DNA of 56,044 nt from Acidobacteriota bacterium (GTDB lineage Bacteria; Acidobacteriota; Vicinamibacteria; Vicinamibacterales; Fen-181): NCBI GenBank assembly GCA_017883185.1, contig JADGOB010000009.1, positions 1 through 56,044 on the forward strand, given 5' to 3'. The stretch's first letter is position 1. Each line of letters opens with the position of its first letter. Of this stretch, positions 135 to 9,410 are shown piece after piece. The notes under the pieces were generated by a model. It had not been told where the DNA came from. It worked only from the letters and a program-made list of their open reading frames with translations, and did not search any database. A program made the translations under genes and the position numbers.

Positions 135-207
135 CGGCGCCAACACCAAGACCGGCAACGAGCGCGACGGGGTGAGAGTCGAGCTGCATTCGGCCCACAC
201 TCAGGTG

Positions 208-789
208 ACGATAGGCCGCATTCAGGGCAGTCCGGCTTTGCCCGGTTAACGGAAGACCCCCTATCAGCCACAGCCGGCGCCCCCCGGAGGTGCCGTGGCC
301 TGCCCAGCCATAGCCGGCACGCGCATGCGTATCGCCCGGCTGATCGTTCCGGCGCCGGCGTGCAGGGCTGCATGCTGAAGGATGCCGTCCAGAACAGCCG
401 TCGAGTGTGCCGGGGCGTGTCGCCGACGCCTGCTGCGCGGCGCGACCTGGCGACCGCACCTGGGCCGACCTGATGAGCCGGGTCTTCGACCAGGACACGG
501 GCATCGCGGCCATCGACCCGTGCGCCTGACCGTCGCGCCGGGTGCCGACTGGCCGGAGGTACGGCCATCTCTCGGCCGAGCGATGGTCCGGCGAGCGGAG
601 CGCTCCTCAGGCCAGGCGTTTCTCTGGGCGTTTCCTTTGACAGGTCATCCGCAGCTGCCATAATCAGCCCTGTGCCTGAGGCCCTGTGCCCGGGGTGCCG
701 TCCCGCGGGGGGCGCCGGCGGGCGGTGTCTGAGAACGGGCCTTCTGTTAATCTGGGGGGCGTAGACCCCGTTAATCCGGCCTATCGTCC
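208..789. mobile_element. MITE-like or decayed element with about 110-bp imperfect inverted ends
   Basis: The left end begins GACGATAGGCCG (208-219) and the right end finishes with its complement, GGCCTATCGTC (778-788). Reading inward, both arms stay alignable for about 110 bp: TTAAC followed by GAAG, a TCAG block, and the shared core CCGGCGCCCCCCG (274-286 on the left; its complement near 707-719 on the right). The inside carries only a possible transposase remnant (458-529) and no intact gene. A near-identical second copy of the right end is at 2568-2686. No clear target-site duplication is visible. The element family is not identified; the terminal sequence faintly recalls the ori end of IS91/ISCR elements, which is speculation. 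Confidence 0.6.
458..529 (+). pseudogene. possible transposase C-terminal remnant
   Basis: One frame reads TWADLMSRVFDQDTGIAAID followed by PCA and a stop at 527-529. This recalls the W-A-x-L-x-R-V-F-x-x-D block that precedes the zinc-binding cysteines in IS91/IS801-type Y2 transposases. The downstream CxxC region is missing, and upstream the frame degrades quickly. It sits inside the inverted-repeat element, on the strand expected if the right end lies downstream of the transposase. The assignment rests on about 20 residues and is weak. Confidence 0.25.
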
Positions 790-871
790 TGCGGATCGTC
801 CTTCTCGATGTGCGTCAAGCTCCTCGGACCCTCTTCTCCCGCTGTCTGTGCTTGTTCCCGCCGCGTGCACG

Positions 872-2152
872 CTAGACCGTGACGTGCGTGATCAGGTACT
901 CCAGGTAGCGCGACTTCATCTGCTTGCTCGCCATGGCCTGCTTGATGGGCGGCAGACGCAGGATCACCCCGAGCACCGTGGCCATCGCGCGGTGGTTCCA
1001 CAGCACGCGGTTGTCGAAGATGAGGTCCTGCAGGCCGCCGCGCTCGATCGCCATGACGATCGTGCGGTGCGCCGAGTTCAGCGGTGTCAGCACGCGCTGC
1101 GGTCGTGAGGCCAGGCCGAGGCTCTTGCTCGGGCACGTCCGCACGCACACCGCGCAGCCGAGACAGAGGTCCTCGTCGACCTTGGCCCGCCGCGCCTTGG
1201 GGTTGTGGGCGTCGTTCGCCGAGACGAGCGTCATCGCCTCCACCGGACAGACGTTCGCGCACTTCCCGCAGCCGTTGCACGTCGCCTCGTCGACGACCGG
1301 CAGGAAGTTGGTGGTGTGGACCGGGTTCATCATGCCGAACTTGCGCGCGGCGATCATCGCCTCGCAGCAGCATCCGCAGCAGTTGCAGATGAAGTTCACG
1401 CCCTCGCGCACGTTCTCGCCGAACTGCACCAGGTTGTGCTCGTAGGCCTGCTGGAGTAGGTCGAGCCCCTCGCTCACGTCGACTAGGCGGGCGTAGCCGT
1501 TCCTGGTGAGCGACTCCGCGCAGCCGTTGAAGGTCATGCAGATCTCCATGGGAGCGTCGCAGTTGCGTCCCATGTGCATCATCTTGTGGCGGCAGTAGCA
1601 GACGCCGATGCCGCGATGCGTGGCGGTCCGGATAACCTCGCTCGCGCGCTCGTAGTCGAGCACGTGCAGCGCGTTCTCGTTCGACAGGACGGGCTCGTGG
1701 ACGAACGTGCGGCCGAGCTGCGTCTCGCCGTTGGCGAAGAGCGCCTTGATGAAGTCCTCTTCGACGTTCAGGTACTGGTAGAAGAGCTCGCCCAGCACCT
1801 TCTGGTCGACGTCGCCGCGCAGCCGCATCATCGAGAACTCGAAGAAGCCCGCCATCGGCGGCGGCAGGATGTAGGTGGTCTCGCCCTCGTGCTCGGTGTC
1901 GAGGAGGATGGCGCGGCTCGCGAGCTCATCGAGCACCTTGCGGGTCTCGGTGAGGTCCATCTTCAGGATCTTCGCGGCCTTCGGGGCCGTGAAGGGCTTG
2001 ATCGGGAGGAGCGCCACGACGGCCGCCTCCCGCTCGCTGAAGAGCATCGAGAGGATCTTGTACAGCGTCTCCGAGGGCGGCGCGCCCTGCGGGAAGCGGT
2101 TCAGGCGGTCGACCAGTTCGGTGTAGCCCGACTTCAACGTGATGTGCGACAT
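872..2152 (-). CDS. 4Fe-4S dicluster protein with N-terminal winged-helix-like region
   Basis: A 426-residue cytoplasmic iron-sulfur protein. The N-terminal 110 residues look like a helical, winged-helix type region (PFTAPKAAKILKMDL, a helix-turn-helix-like stretch). The middle has two cysteine-rich blocks, one with CYCRHK and a later CDAPMEIC, the other CNCCGCCCEA. The C-terminal part has two ferredoxin-type motifs, CNGCGKCANVCP and CLGCAVCVRTCP, each able to bind a 4Fe-4S cluster. The start at 2152 is supported by a GGAGAGG ribosome site just upstream; the open frame extends 44 codons further back, but that extension is low-complexity. It may act in electron transfer or redox sensing; the substrate is unknown. 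It lies between the two copies of the repeat right end (671-789 and 2568-2686), so this block may have moved as a unit. Confidence 0.8.
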   Translation of the reverse strand: MSHITLKSGYTELVDRLNRFPQGAPPSETLYKILSMLFSEREAAVVALLPIKPFTAPKAAKILKMDLTETRKVLDELASRAILLDTEHEGETTYILPPPMAGFFEFSMMRLRGDVDQKVLGELFYQYLNVEEDFIKALFANGETQLGRTFVHEPVLSNENALHVLDYERASEVIRTATHRGIGVCYCRHKMMHMGRNCDAPMEICMTFNGCAESLTRNGYARLVDVSEGLDLLQQAYEHNLVQFGENVREGVNFICNCCGCCCEAMIAARKFGMMNPVHTTNFLPVVDEATCNGCGKCANVCPVEAMTLVSANDAHNPKARRAKVDEDLCLGCAVCVRTCPSKSLGLASRPQRVLTPLNSAHRTIVMAIERGGLQDLIFDNRVLWNHRAMATVLGVILRLPPIKQAMASKQMKSRYLEYLITHVTV

Positions 2153-2337
2153 GTCCGCCTCTCCGCGCTCACGGGCCCGGTGCCCGTGCCGTCCGATCGT
2201 CGTCCGGCACCTCCGCGGCGCCGCATACAAAGATACCGTGTCGGTACACCGGCGCGCTGGAAGTCGCCGGTGCGACGGCCGCACTATCCTGTCAGTGCTT
2301 CCGCTCCTACCACCACCCTCCGAACAGGGACGAGCCC

Positions 2338-2567
2338 ATGGCGCGCCGACGCATCACCGGATCCATCTGGACTCGACTCGCGGTCGTCGCGGTCTTCGCG
2401 GTCGCCATGGCCTTCATGGAGGCCGCCGTCGTGGTCTACCTGCGAGAGCTCTTCCACATCACCGGCGGGCTCGTGACGTCCGCTCCGGCCGCGAAGGACA
2501 TCTGGTTCTCCGTCCCGTTCTTCACGCTGCTGAAGCCGGGCGCCCTGGCCGGCGTCCTGCCTCAGTC
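2338..2567 (+). pseudogene. 5' part of a membrane-protein gene cut off by a repeat copy
   Basis: Starts at ATG 2338 after a CAGGGACGAG ribosome site and encodes about 76 residues with one clear transmembrane helix (VVAVFAVAMAFMEAAVVVYL) followed by a second hydrophobic stretch (WFSVPFFTLLKPGAL). The frame then runs into the repeat at 2568 and ends within it. The visible part resembles the start of a multi-pass membrane protein. No continuation of the family was seen right of the repeat, so the 3' part is lost, not merely displaced. Confidence 0.6.
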
Positions 2568-2686
2568 TGTGCCTGAGGCCCTGTGCCCGGGGTGCCGTCC
2601 CGCGGGGGGCGCCGGCGGGCGGTGTCTGAGAACGGGCCTTCTGTTAATCTGGGGAGCATAGACCCCGTTAATCCGGCCTATCGTCC
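2568..2686 (+). repeat. solo copy of the element right end (119 bp)
   Basis: This stretch matches 671-789 at all but two positions (GGGGGGCGTAGA versus GGGGAGCATAGA), in the same orientation, 1897 bp further on. It ends in GGCCTATCGTCC. Its left boundary truncates the membrane-protein gene at 2567, and its right boundary lies one base before the start codon of the next gene at 2688. The near identity suggests recent duplication, one-ended transposition, or recombination between copies. Confidence 0.85.
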
Positions 2687-2687
2687 C

Positions 2688-3317
2688 ATGAGAATGGCAT
2701 TCCTGCTGGTCGCTGTGGTTCTCGCGCCGGCGACTGCCGCGGCGCAAGGCACCACCAGGGGATGCATCAGGGACAACCACGGCGACGTGCTTCCCGGAGT
2801 TGAAATCGTCGCCTCGAATTCGGAGGGGCGAGAGAGAGCGGTGACGGACTCGGCCGGCTGCTATCAACTCCGGAGTTTGCGCGCAGGCACCTACTCGGTG
2901 GCAGCAGCCCTGGCTGGGTTCGTGACCGGCAAGCGCGGGGGCGTGGCGGTTGTGGATGGGCGCACTGCTGAATCGCTGGATTTCGCGCTCTGCACAGCCG
3001 CGGTAGAGGAAATCGACTGGTGGGTGCCGCCTGGACTGAACGGAATGTGGAAGCAGGCCGACGTGGTCGCCCGCACGCTCACCTTCACCCAGGAGAACTG
3101 GACGGGCGAGCGCACTCCGTACGCCGTAGGCCAGGATATGGTCCTGTTCCTTGTGGCAGGGCCGCGTGGGTTTCGCCGGTTGGCTGGTCCGCATTCCGTG
3201 TTCTTCCTCGAGGGCGACCAAGTTGTCAGCGACCTGCCGGCCGAGACGAAGGGCTTGACGCCTGCTGACTTCCTGGCGAAACTACGGGCGTTCGCGAAAG
3301 GACCCGAGTGCCGGTGA
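2688..3317 (+). CDS. secreted protein with carboxypeptidase-regulatory-like domain
   Basis: A 209-residue protein with an N-terminal signal peptide (FLLVAVVLAPATAAAQ). Residues about 20-105 form a carboxypeptidase-D regulatory-like beta-sandwich: GCIRDNHGDVLPGVEI and later LRAGTYSVAAALAGF are the usual markers. The C-terminal 100 residues (from about EEIDWWVPPG) are not recognised. The domain is common in outer-membrane and secreted proteins of Acidobacteriota and Bacteroidota. ATG 2688 is chosen because the signal peptide follows directly. The start lies two bases after the 119-bp repeat, so its promoter and ribosome site must come from repeat sequence, which leaves expression uncertain. Confidence 0.7.
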   Translation: MRMAFLLVAVVLAPATAAAQGTTRGCIRDNHGDVLPGVEIVASNSEGRERAVTDSAGCYQLRSLRAGTYSVAAALAGFVTGKRGGVAVVDGRTAESLDFALCTAAVEEIDWWVPPGLNGMWKQADVVARTLTFTQENWTGERTPYAVGQDMVLFLVAGPRGFRRLAGPHSVFFLEGDQVVSDLPAETKGLTPADFLAKLRAFAKGPECR

Positions 3318-3425
3318 TACGACCGTCCAACGAGGGAATGAAGCTGACGCCAGTGGTATCGTGAGCGCCGGCAGGTGAGCGCGGAACGTGAGACAGTCCA
3401 AAACGTGAATTCAAGGAGAATGTCG

Positions 3426-4880
3426 ATGTCACGGCCCCCAGCTGAAGCACGGTTCGCGCGTATAGGTCGCTGGCTCGTGCTCGCGGCGCTCAGCGCTTCA
3501 AGCGGCGCGCACGCCCAAACATCGATGACGCGACCACCTCAGAGATTTGAGGCACTCGGTCGAGACATCCTGAGCGAACTCGTGGCGATCAACTCGACGC
3601 ACGCGCATGGCTCGACCGTTGCCGCACAAGCGGTAGCCGCGCGAGCGCTCGCGGCAGGATTTGCGTCCGCCGATGTGCATGTGCTTGCCCCCGCAGACCA
3701 TCCAGAGCAGGCCAATGTCGTCGTGCGTCTGCGCGGTCGCTCTGGTGACCGACCCGTGCTGTACATCGCCCACCTTGACGTCGTCGAAGCGCGGCGCGAG
3801 GACTGGACGTTCGATCCCTTTCGGCTCACCGAGCAGGAGGGTTGGCTATACGGACGTGGCACGATCGACATGAAGGGCCAGGACGCAGCCGTGCTCACGA
3901 GCCTCATTCGTCTGAAGCAGGAAGGGGTCGTGCCGGCGCGCGACATCATCGCCGCCTTTACCGCCGACGAGGAGGCAGGCGGAGACGCAAACGGCGTGGC
4001 GTGGCTTTTCAAGGAGCATCGCGACCTGGTCGACGCGGCGCTCATCGTGAATCCGGACGGTGGCGAGGCGGCGATCAAGCAGGGGCGCAAGCTCTATGTC
4101 GCCGTGCAAACGAGCGAAAAAGTGTTCGTCACGTTTGCGCTCGAGACGACCGACAAGGGTGGGCACAGCTCGCGCCCGACGGCGGACAACCCCATTTATC
4201 GTCTGGCGGCCGGTCTTGATCGGCTGGCGAAGTTCCGGTTTCCTGTCCACCTGACGGACACGACCAGACTGTATTTCGGCCGGCGCGCGGATATTGAGAG
4301 CGGCCCGCTGCAGTCCGACATGCGGGCGATTCTCCGCACTCCCCAGGACCCCGCTGCCGTAGAGCGCCTGTCGTCAATCGTCGAGACCAATGTCCAACTG
4401 CGGACGACCTGCACCACCACGATGATCGTGGGCGGACACGCGGAGAACGCTCTTCCGCAACGCGCGCGAGCCACCGTGCAATGCCGCGTGATCCCGGGCG
4501 AGTCGCCGGACTCGGTGGCAGCGACGATCAGCGCAACGCTGGCTGATCCGAAGATCGTGGTCAGCGTCATGACGCCTGCAACGCCCGCCCCGGACTCACC
4601 GCCCGCGCCGGCCATCCTGGCTATGGTCGAGGGCGTCACGCGCTCCATGTGGCCGGGCGTGGTCGTGCTGCCGGCGATGAGCTCTGGCGCCTCCGATAGC
4701 ATTTACACGCGCGCGGTCGGTTTGCCGAGTTACGGGATCGACGGCATGTTCGATGATCTCGACGACGGCCGGGCGCACGGCCGCGACGAGCGCATCGGCG
4801 TGGTCGCATTCGCTGAGGAGCTCGAGTTCACGTACCGCCTCATGCGGGCGATGAGCGACGCCCCTAGCGGGATCCGCTGA
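3426..4880 (+). CDS. M20 family metallopeptidase, exported
   Basis: A 484-residue di-zinc peptidase of the M20 (carboxypeptidase/dipeptidase) family. An AAGGAG site at 3413-3418 fits ATG 3426 (7 bp spacing) better than ATG 3420. The signal peptide ends near SSGAHAQ, so the enzyme is probably periplasmic. Metal-binding motifs are in order: AHLDVV (His-x-Asp), GRGTIDMKG (bridging Asp), TADEEAGG (catalytic and ligand Glu), and a C-terminal RAHGRDERI segment carrying the last His. The dimerisation insert begins near KGGHSSRP. Its likely role is cleavage of C-terminal residues or dipeptides from peptides in the envelope. It stands alone, without operon partners. Confidence 0.88.
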   Translation: MSRPPAEARFARIGRWLVLAALSASSGAHAQTSMTRPPQRFEALGRDILSELVAINSTHAHGSTVAAQAVAARALAAGFASADVHVLAPADHPEQANVVVRLRGRSGDRPVLYIAHLDVVEARREDWTFDPFRLTEQEGWLYGRGTIDMKGQDAAVLTSLIRLKQEGVVPARDIIAAFTADEEAGGDANGVAWLFKEHRDLVDAALIVNPDGGEAAIKQGRKLYVAVQTSEKVFVTFALETTDKGGHSSRPTADNPIYRLAAGLDRLAKFRFPVHLTDTTRLYFGRRADIESGPLQSDMRAILRTPQDPAAVERLSSIVETNVQLRTTCTTTMIVGGHAENALPQRARATVQCRVIPGESPDSVAATISATLADPKIVVSVMTPATPAPDSPPAPAILAMVEGVTRSMWPGVVVLPAMSSGASDSIYTRAVGLPSYGIDGMFDDLDDGRAHGRDERIGVVAFAEELEFTYRLMRAMSDAPSGIR

Positions 4881-4944
4881 CCGTCCTCGAGGATCGCGGT
4901 CGAACCGACGAAGCGGCCGCGAAACTTGGCGGCCGGGGCAAAAT

Positions 4945-5200
4945 TCAACATCGTCGGAACACCTCGAGGATCGCCTCCGCCAGCAACCGCGACTCCTCCG
5001 CGCGCTTGCGGTCGGTGGTGCCAGTGAACATTGCGAACGATCCCGCGAATGCCCCGGACGCGTCGCGGAGCGCAGTTGCCGACGCCAGGCACCAGCCCGC
5101 GGTCCCATCCGCGCGGCGAAAGCGGCGCTGGTAGACGTCTTCCCGCCCTTTGTCGCGCTCGCGGGCCCGGTGATCGCCCAGATCCTCCGGGAGCGCTGCC
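4945..5200 (-). pseudogene. remnant of a PAS/PAC sensory domain
   Basis: On the minus strand one frame reads VYQRRFRRADGTAGWCLASA and then DRKRAEESRLLAEAILEVFR before a TGA at 4945-4947. The pattern R-F-R-x-x-D-G-x-x-x-W followed by a TDRKRAEE tail is typical of the end of a PAS fold. No start codon or upstream sensor or kinase portion is found; the frame becomes proline and arginine rich above 5200. This is best read as a leftover piece of a sensor protein. Confidence 0.5.
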
Positions 5201-5282
5201 CCCCGGGCCGGTGGCGCCAGGGTTCGGTGTGTGCAGGCAAGAGAGCAGGGTCCGGGGTTCCAGAGAAGGGGTGACGACGTGC

Positions 5283-5288
5283 TACAAT
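5283..5288 (+). promoter_or_regulatory. possible -10 box of uvrA
   Basis: TACAAT at 5283-5288, about 55 bp before the uvrA start, is a good -10 match in a GC-rich stretch. No clear -35 box is present at 16-18 bp. The local drop in GC supports a promoter here, but weakly. No LexA-type operator was noticed. Confidence 0.3.
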
Positions 5289-5343
5289 TTCCCGTTTAGG
5301 GATACGCGCAAATTGCCGGCCGTGGAACCGGCGGTTGGGTAGC

Positions 5344-8283
<2,940 letters not shown>

Positions 8284-8498: not shown

Positions 8499-9410
8499 AT
8501 GGACTCACAACGGACTCTTCGACGACAGGTGTTCTGCGCCGGAATCGGCCTTCACTCAGGCAACAAGGTCACATTGACGCTTCGGCCGGCGCCGGCAGAT
8601 TCCGGGATTCGGTTTCGGCGCACGGACCTTGGCGGCTTTGAGATTGAAGCCACCGTCAACAACCTGGCCGGTATCCACTACGCGACGGGACTGGTGCGGA
8701 ACGAAGGGTCGGTCGAGACCGTCGAGCACCTGCTGGCGGCGTTGGTCAGCCTTGGGATCGACAACGCGGTTGTCGAGTTGAACTACCCCGAGGTGCCGAT
8801 CATGGACGGCAGCGCGGCGCCGTTCGTGTACCTGATTCACGAGGCCGGCATCCGTTCGCTCCGGGTGCCAAAGCGCTTCCTCCGCGTCACCAAGCCAATC
8901 GAACTGACGCGTGGCGACAAGCGGATCGCCCTCTACCCGAGCGATCACTTCAAGGTCACCTACTCGATCAGCTACGACCACCCGCTGCTGCGCCACCAGG
9001 CGCGGACGATCGCGATCAACGAGTCGGTGTTCATCGAGCAGATTGCGCCGGCGCGCACCTTCACCTTCCTGAAGGAAGTGGAGATGCTGCGGCAGAACGG
9101 CTTCGCCCTCGGCGGCTCGCTCGAGAACGCGGTCGTCATCGGCGAGACGGGCGTCCTGAACAATCCCCTCCGCTTCGACGACGAGTTCGTGCGCCACAAG
9201 ATTCTGGACGTGATTGGCGATCTCGCGCTCGTCGGCTTCCCGGTGATCGGCCACCTGGTGGCGCACCGCGGCGGTCACGGCCTGCACACGGCGTTCGCCG
9301 CGAAGATCCTGGAAGAGCGGGATTCCTGGGAACTCGTGGAACAGCCGCTGATGCCGGCGCTGCCGGTGCCCTCCGCTGCCCCGATTGGAGCTGCGGCGAC
9401 GGGACGGTAG
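8499..9410 (+). CDS. lpxC: UDP-3-O-acyl-N-acetylglucosamine deacetylase
   Basis: LpxC (303 aa) catalyses the committed step of lipid A synthesis, zinc-dependent removal of the N-acetyl group. The GIGLHSG start region, VEHLLAAL (zinc ligand His77), HKILDVIGDLAL (His233 and Asp237) and GGHGLHTAF (catalytic His region) are all present. It is a stand-alone LpxC, without the fused FabZ domain seen in Bacteroidota. Its presence means the organism makes an LPS-type outer membrane. The 140 bp upstream (8357-8498) are noticeably more AT-rich than the surroundings and must hold its promoter, though no confident hexamer pair was picked out. Confidence 0.97.
   Translation: MDSQRTLRRQVFCAGIGLHSGNKVTLTLRPAPADSGIRFRRTDLGGFEIEATVNNLAGIHYATGLVRNEGSVETVEHLLAALVSLGIDNAVVELNYPEVPIMDGSAAPFVYLIHEAGIRSLRVPKRFLRVTKPIELTRGDKRIALYPSDHFKVTYSISYDHPLLRHQARTIAINESVFIEQIAPARTFTFLKEVEMLRQNGFALGGSLENAVVIGETGVLNNPLRFDDEFVRHKILDVIGDLALVGFPVIGHLVAHRGGHGLHTAFAAKILEERDSWELVEQPLMPALPVPSAAPIGAAATGR

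Follow-up and report, generated by a model that had tools for sequence, protein, structure and literature searches.

The window analysed here (the whole stretch of DNA, 56,044 nucleotides) carries two copies of a 119-bp sequence in the same orientation on either side of a Fe-S protein gene, with a reversed relative of the repeat close by. What is this repeat, and how did its copies come to lie there? The earlier note on this DNA had described an element of 582 bp bounded by imperfect inverted ends. Our analysis suggests that the repeat is the oriIS end of an IS91/ISCR-like element and that one-ended rolling-circle transposition yields ori-only miniatures of it, a reading that we consider likely. 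Below, END denotes the repeated oriIS (3') end unit, and G000 denotes the window's own genome, a draft of 4.85 Mb in 395 contigs.

The two copies in the window (670-788 and 2567-2685, both on the plus strand) are 119 bp each, or 120 if one C common to both flanks is counted. They differ at exactly two positions, 758 and 761 (G/A in both cases), which confirms the earlier description of a right end found twice with two differences. The left arm at 207-315 is a reverse-oriented relative with about 71-77% identity; its local alignment score was 46, and 300 shuffles scored 34 at most. The best non-self match of the repeat in G000 had an E-value of 2.9e-26. The repeat is far beyond chance. We read the features of this region as follows.

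207-315, minus strand: solo oriIS end unit (nhmmer E = 1.3e-19; whole unit 77% identical to the solo copy at C346:711-818), with the outer tip GACGATAGGCC and the inner tip CTATGGC, the counterpart of CTGTGCC
316-669, plus strand: relic made up of a transposase C-terminal fragment and the spacer between transposase and end, by similarity to C247
443-496, plus strand: transposase C-terminal scrap RPGDRTWADLMSRVFDQD (WADLMSRVFD), within the relic
670-788, plus strand: oriIS (3') end, CTGTGCC...CCTATCGTC, preceded by the element-internal TAATCAGCC
789-2566, no strand: host DNA between the ends, with the Fe-S protein gene and a truncated membrane-protein ORF
about 875-2158, minus strand: Fe-S protein gene, in the host DNA between the ends
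from 2338, plus strand: truncated membrane-protein ORF, cut by the END at 2567-2685
2567-2685, plus strand: solo oriIS end, with the 5' tip exactly CTGTGCC and two mismatches to 670-788

The repeat is no two-copy curiosity; it occurs at high copy number across an order. A 126-bp query found about 20 further places in G000, at 70-86% identity. Copies were counted with a sequence-only model of the 64-bp END core, which gave 31 matches in G000 at E<=0.01, and core matches were present in 86 of the 162 genomes of the order; the wider search proposed in the earlier note has in this way taken the repeat beyond its two sites. Counts per genome with the core model were 30 in G063, 24 in G118, 18 in G082, and 17 each in G026 and G051. 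Nearly all the genomes used are draft assemblies, in which short identical repeats can lead to wrong joins. This caveat weighs most on G118 with its identical copies, and less on G000 and G001, whose copies have diverged.

An intact transposase gene (524 amino acid residues) was found in G022 C34, followed on the same strand by an END at a distance of about 100-200 bp. The protein contains the Pfam domains Zn_Tnp_IS91 and Y2_Tnp above their cut-offs (3.6e-18 and 3e-22). It resembles the ISCR clade Ia and IS91 models while falling below both cut-offs; against the NCBIfam model ISCR_clade_Ia, the E-value was 1e-105 with 354 of 925 bits, well below the cut-off of the model. In the transposase alignment, HxH is conserved together with a single Tyr (RYxLRP), as in the ISCR type; ISCR transposases have one catalytic Tyr and IS91 transposases have two. 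When the order and GTDB contigs were searched at the protein level, 55 genomes and 25 loci, mostly from Acidobacteria, contained matches. At about 20 loci that keep the C-terminus, from diverse Acidobacteria, an END lies 3' of the IS91-like transposase gene on the same strand, and the terminus ..CCTATCGTC recurs even in distant members of the family. Because of this position beside IS91/ISCR-like transposase genes in about 20 relatives, we regard the repeat as the 3' end (oriIS) of the element. The view in the earlier note of a mobile-element end is borne out, and full-length copies with a transposase, which it had proposed to look for, exist as the intact gene in G022 and the END-transposase pairs. 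The HUH transposase was recognised in relatives and partly in G000 C121, a result that applies to those loci, with the relic in the window itself outside it. The element had also looked undescribed; it belongs to the known IS91/ISCR superfamily, and the claim stands insofar as no catalogued IS was identified. A search for a conserved hairpin in END found no conserved pairs; a GGCCG-CTAATA-CGGCC hairpin is present in some subfamilies only. At about 1440-1480 of C121 (L044), a short repeat reading PFDVAQDHPERSRG interrupts the transposase gene, and this repeat was also seen in other relics and flanks.

The other end of the full-length elements has a sequence of its own. Members of the family have in common one or two GCAGAAACTGC-like palindromes, which lie within about 100-150 bp before the start of the transposase gene. 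This ter-side end, 5' of the transposase gene, is unrelated to END in intact relatives, and there is no inverted END there; only this genus showed an END in inverted orientation on the 5' side of transposase remains (in the window, C121, and G001 C25). The arms in the window had been taken for the inverted ends of one element, which the intact relatives contradict. As the left arm begins and ends like a solo unit (CTGTG..CGTC), we read it as a separate insertion, and the 582-bp element is most likely a composite of a reverse solo end, a decayed transposase C-terminus, and an oriIS end. Between the arms there is no intact gene, as the earlier note had observed, and the possible Y2-transposase scrap that it mentioned is the IS91-type C-terminal scrap at 443-496. 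The relic resembles loci C247, C192, and C72, where pieces of IS91-like transposase are readable; positions 477-670 are 80% identical to C247, where the transposase sequence RLIALIEQASVIQRILRHLGLPTEVP can be read. Of the three pieces in the window, 316-788 is a relic truncated at its 5' side, and 207-315 (reversed) and 2567-2685 are solo ends.

The Fe-S protein gene gave single matches in G001, G002, G004, and G005 at 71-74% DNA identity, and no second full copy was found in G000. It is an ordinary single-copy gene of the genus in which nothing marks mobility, and its proposed status as captured cargo is unsupported. No homologue of the truncated ORF starting at 2338 was found in the 60 relatives searched.

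The truncation of END copies is one-sided. The 3' terminus ..TATCGTC is kept in 62 of the 73 distinct copies away from contig edges. Comparison of 66 distinct sites gave 76 pairs with homologous 5' flanks, the shared length grading from 23 to 302 nt, and 3 pairs with homologous 3' flanks, all of them G000-G001 orthologues. Part of the 5' flank sharing is element-internal sequence, as a nested truncation series predicts. The one-ended movement suggested in the earlier note fits this imbalance of 76 against 3 pairs. Solo copies in G000 (L002, L004, L009, L012, and L013, likewise L007) begin exactly at CTGTG. In G118, 14 copies have identical END cores, three discrete 5' lengths, and all different flanks; their CTGA tips are at CTGAGTCTG (8 copies), CTGAGAAGC (4 copies), and a longer form (2 copies). 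The observed 5' tips all begin with CTG, a candidate regularity that we noted after the fact. The G118 assembly (L275-L285) is a 3.2-Mb draft, and many of the 14 identical cores lie within 300 bp of contig ends. At 290-420 of G001 C167 (L174), two END pieces, each without the 3' terminus, are joined head to head.

Some copies carry or join host DNA. The copy in G001 C199 carries 26 nt (GAGGCGGGCGGATCGAACGCGTCGTG) that at C167 and at G000 C269 are part of a longer host stretch; these are not one locus assembled twice, because the copies differ at several bases. Two END copies in G063 (C20 and C78) have at least 95 nt of left flank in common and different right flanks. In C32 of the same genome, the left flank consists of the beginning of an IS-like sequence, and the copy of this sequence in C16 runs on without END. 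In G118, ENDs stand at junctions between truncated genes from different families (for example UTRA|END|SDR at L278 and FmdA_AmdA|END|DUF6508 at L282); the missing halves of the genes beside these two ENDs were absent within 2.8 kb, that of the right-hand gene being sought upstream.

The earlier note had also proposed a search for empty sites. No complete site with joined flanks was found for the END copies of G000; unoccupied targets could be deduced at two sites in G063, GGTCCG|ATTACG from a paralogue in C104 and GACG|TCGAAG from a paralogue at C6:46741 and six relatives. These targets place the 3' terminus of END after CGTC. No target tetranucleotide was recognised, and the bases of the 3' flank are unconserved. 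In G063 C6, the same target region is repeated after each of two ENDs, over 404 bp in one case. Within C6:45000-55000 (L215) there are three copies of this region, which borders an ftsZ-like 3' end as well as a radical-SAM-like gene; they lie at 1742-2145, 4157-4465, and 8731-9128. Two of them have the 3' terminus of an END as their exact starting point, which may reflect a long target duplication. We rejected such duplication as a rule, as it was seen only at G063 C6.

How might these copies arise? The END pattern matches IS91-type transfer from ori, with a possible stop at ter-like sequences. An HUH transposase would nick at the oriIS (3') end and start strand transfer; the transfer would halt at a ter-like site (the observed tips begin with CTG) short of the true left end, and the 3' piece alone would be inserted. 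Ori-only pieces would retain the full recognition end and could be remobilised in trans, sometimes taking a little upstream DNA. For IS801, one-ended transposition in vivo gave right-end fragments of 229, 360, and 679 nt, and such miniatures made up more than 26% of its events (PMC3189936). Some observations weigh against this reading: END has no conserved hairpin and its copies show no recognisable target tetranucleotide, both of them features to be expected of IS91/ISCR elements, and G063 and G118 have many copies with no transposase relative detected.

The solo ENDs might instead be passive relics, left when full elements were deleted or rearranged. The authors of the IS801 study ascribed most natural IS801 fragments to reorganisation (PMC3189936), ENDs often lie between two truncated genes (as at L278 and L282), and some of the copies that we regard as one-ended products could be mimicked by relics made by deletion. 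However, random decay should trim both ends alike and explains the retention of the 3' end poorly; discrete tips recur beside unrelated flanks, and the 14 identical copies in G118 need recent spread. We consider passive origin unlikely as a general explanation.

Two further readings deny that END is an IS91-type end. The small size (55-130 bp), the high copy number, and the bursts without a detected resident transposase would suit a DDE-type MITE or a REP/IS200-type element, whose likeness to an IS91 end would then be superficial. This is very improbable: END is the 3' end of elements with an IS91-like transposase, the unit tips (CTG.. and ..CGTC) are not terminal inverted repeats, and no target duplication is visible beside the shortest units of G118. 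Slightly less probable still is site-specific recombination, with END as an attC-like or RIT-like site and exchangeable cassettes between ENDs. ENDs do stand in rows with genes between them (in G063 C38 and in the window), and END contains a loose internal dyad; yet the consensus has no RYYYAAC/GTTRRRY boxes, the linked gene encodes an HUH transposase and not a tyrosine recombinase, and the variable 5' lengths would go unexplained. The RIT and attC ideas, which came from the dyad and the END rows, were given up when the linked gene turned out to encode an HUH transposase.

Several known systems come close to the END elements. The right-end fragments of IS801 (IS91 family, Pseudomonas syringae; PMC3189936) likewise have a fixed ori end, discrete shorter lengths, and a left tip at a short recurrent motif, there produced by one-ended transposition. 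They differ in being 229-679 nt long, with GAAC-like tips, and mostly from a trap plasmid, whereas END units are 55-130 nt with CTG tips, number tens per genome, and are found in many genomes of an order. ISCR elements such as ISCR1 (PMC6218425, PMC13393415) share the HUH transposase with one conserved Tyr and the asymmetric oriIS and terIS; the END elements, in contrast, fall well below the model cut-off and, at the loci seen, were linked to neither integrons nor resistance genes. REP sequences with TnpA_REP (PMC8266576) are also short, probably non-autonomous, and numerous, with a linked HUH transposase, but that transposase is of a different family, and END has no conserved palindrome and is truncated on one side. 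Helitrons (Helraiser; PMC4778049) are similar in rolling-circle transposition, alternative termination, and capture of neighbouring DNA, but they use a eukaryotic Rep-helicase transposase, and their alternative ends are at the 3' side, whereas those of END copies are at the 5' side.

What we describe is a known superfamily in an unusual state, in which ori-only miniatures are present in many copies throughout an order. The one-sided copies look like a natural record of one-ended transposition, which is known mainly from laboratory traps. As of 2018, ISCR transposition was without experimental demonstration (PMC6218425), and ISCR elements elsewhere are vehicles of resistance genes; tens of 5'-truncated, 3'-anchored copies per genome point indirectly to one-ended movement of DNA by an ISCR-type HUH transposase. 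The END series defines a likely 3' terminus (..TATCGTC), candidate 5' tips (CTG), and a minimal substrate of 55-119 bp. Although G063 and G118 have many END copies, neither genome gave a relative of the transposase at E<=1e-20. We tentatively suggest, with slightly more doubt than confidence, that ori-only ISCR-like units are self-sustaining non-autonomous rolling-circle repeats, which are mobilised in trans, reach tens of copies by bursts where no transposase was detected, and join gene fragments, in one case even in frame (the 1730-aa ORF of G063 C38), in an order of Acidobacteria; by analogy, such a class might be called a bacterial counterpart of SINEs or REPs.

Some ENDs lie within open frames. 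At 1144-6417 of G063 C38 (L059), a 1730-aa ORF crosses two identical ENDs in frame (..MFAGSDNRPAVNWEAANTAYRP..) and joins a GH39-like domain, a BNR-like domain, and a segment of 43% GC in a contig of 63-68% GC; it is either a real fusion or a misassembly. In-frame insertion into proteins, as in the Rickettsia palindromic elements, was rejected as a rule, as G063 C38 is the only place with convincing long ORFs in the same frame on both sides. In the window, an open frame at 2583-3317 links the solo END to a CarboxypepD_reg protein, which has its own ATG just past END; here END might serve as a leader or as an outward promoter, as reported for the oriIS of ISCR1.
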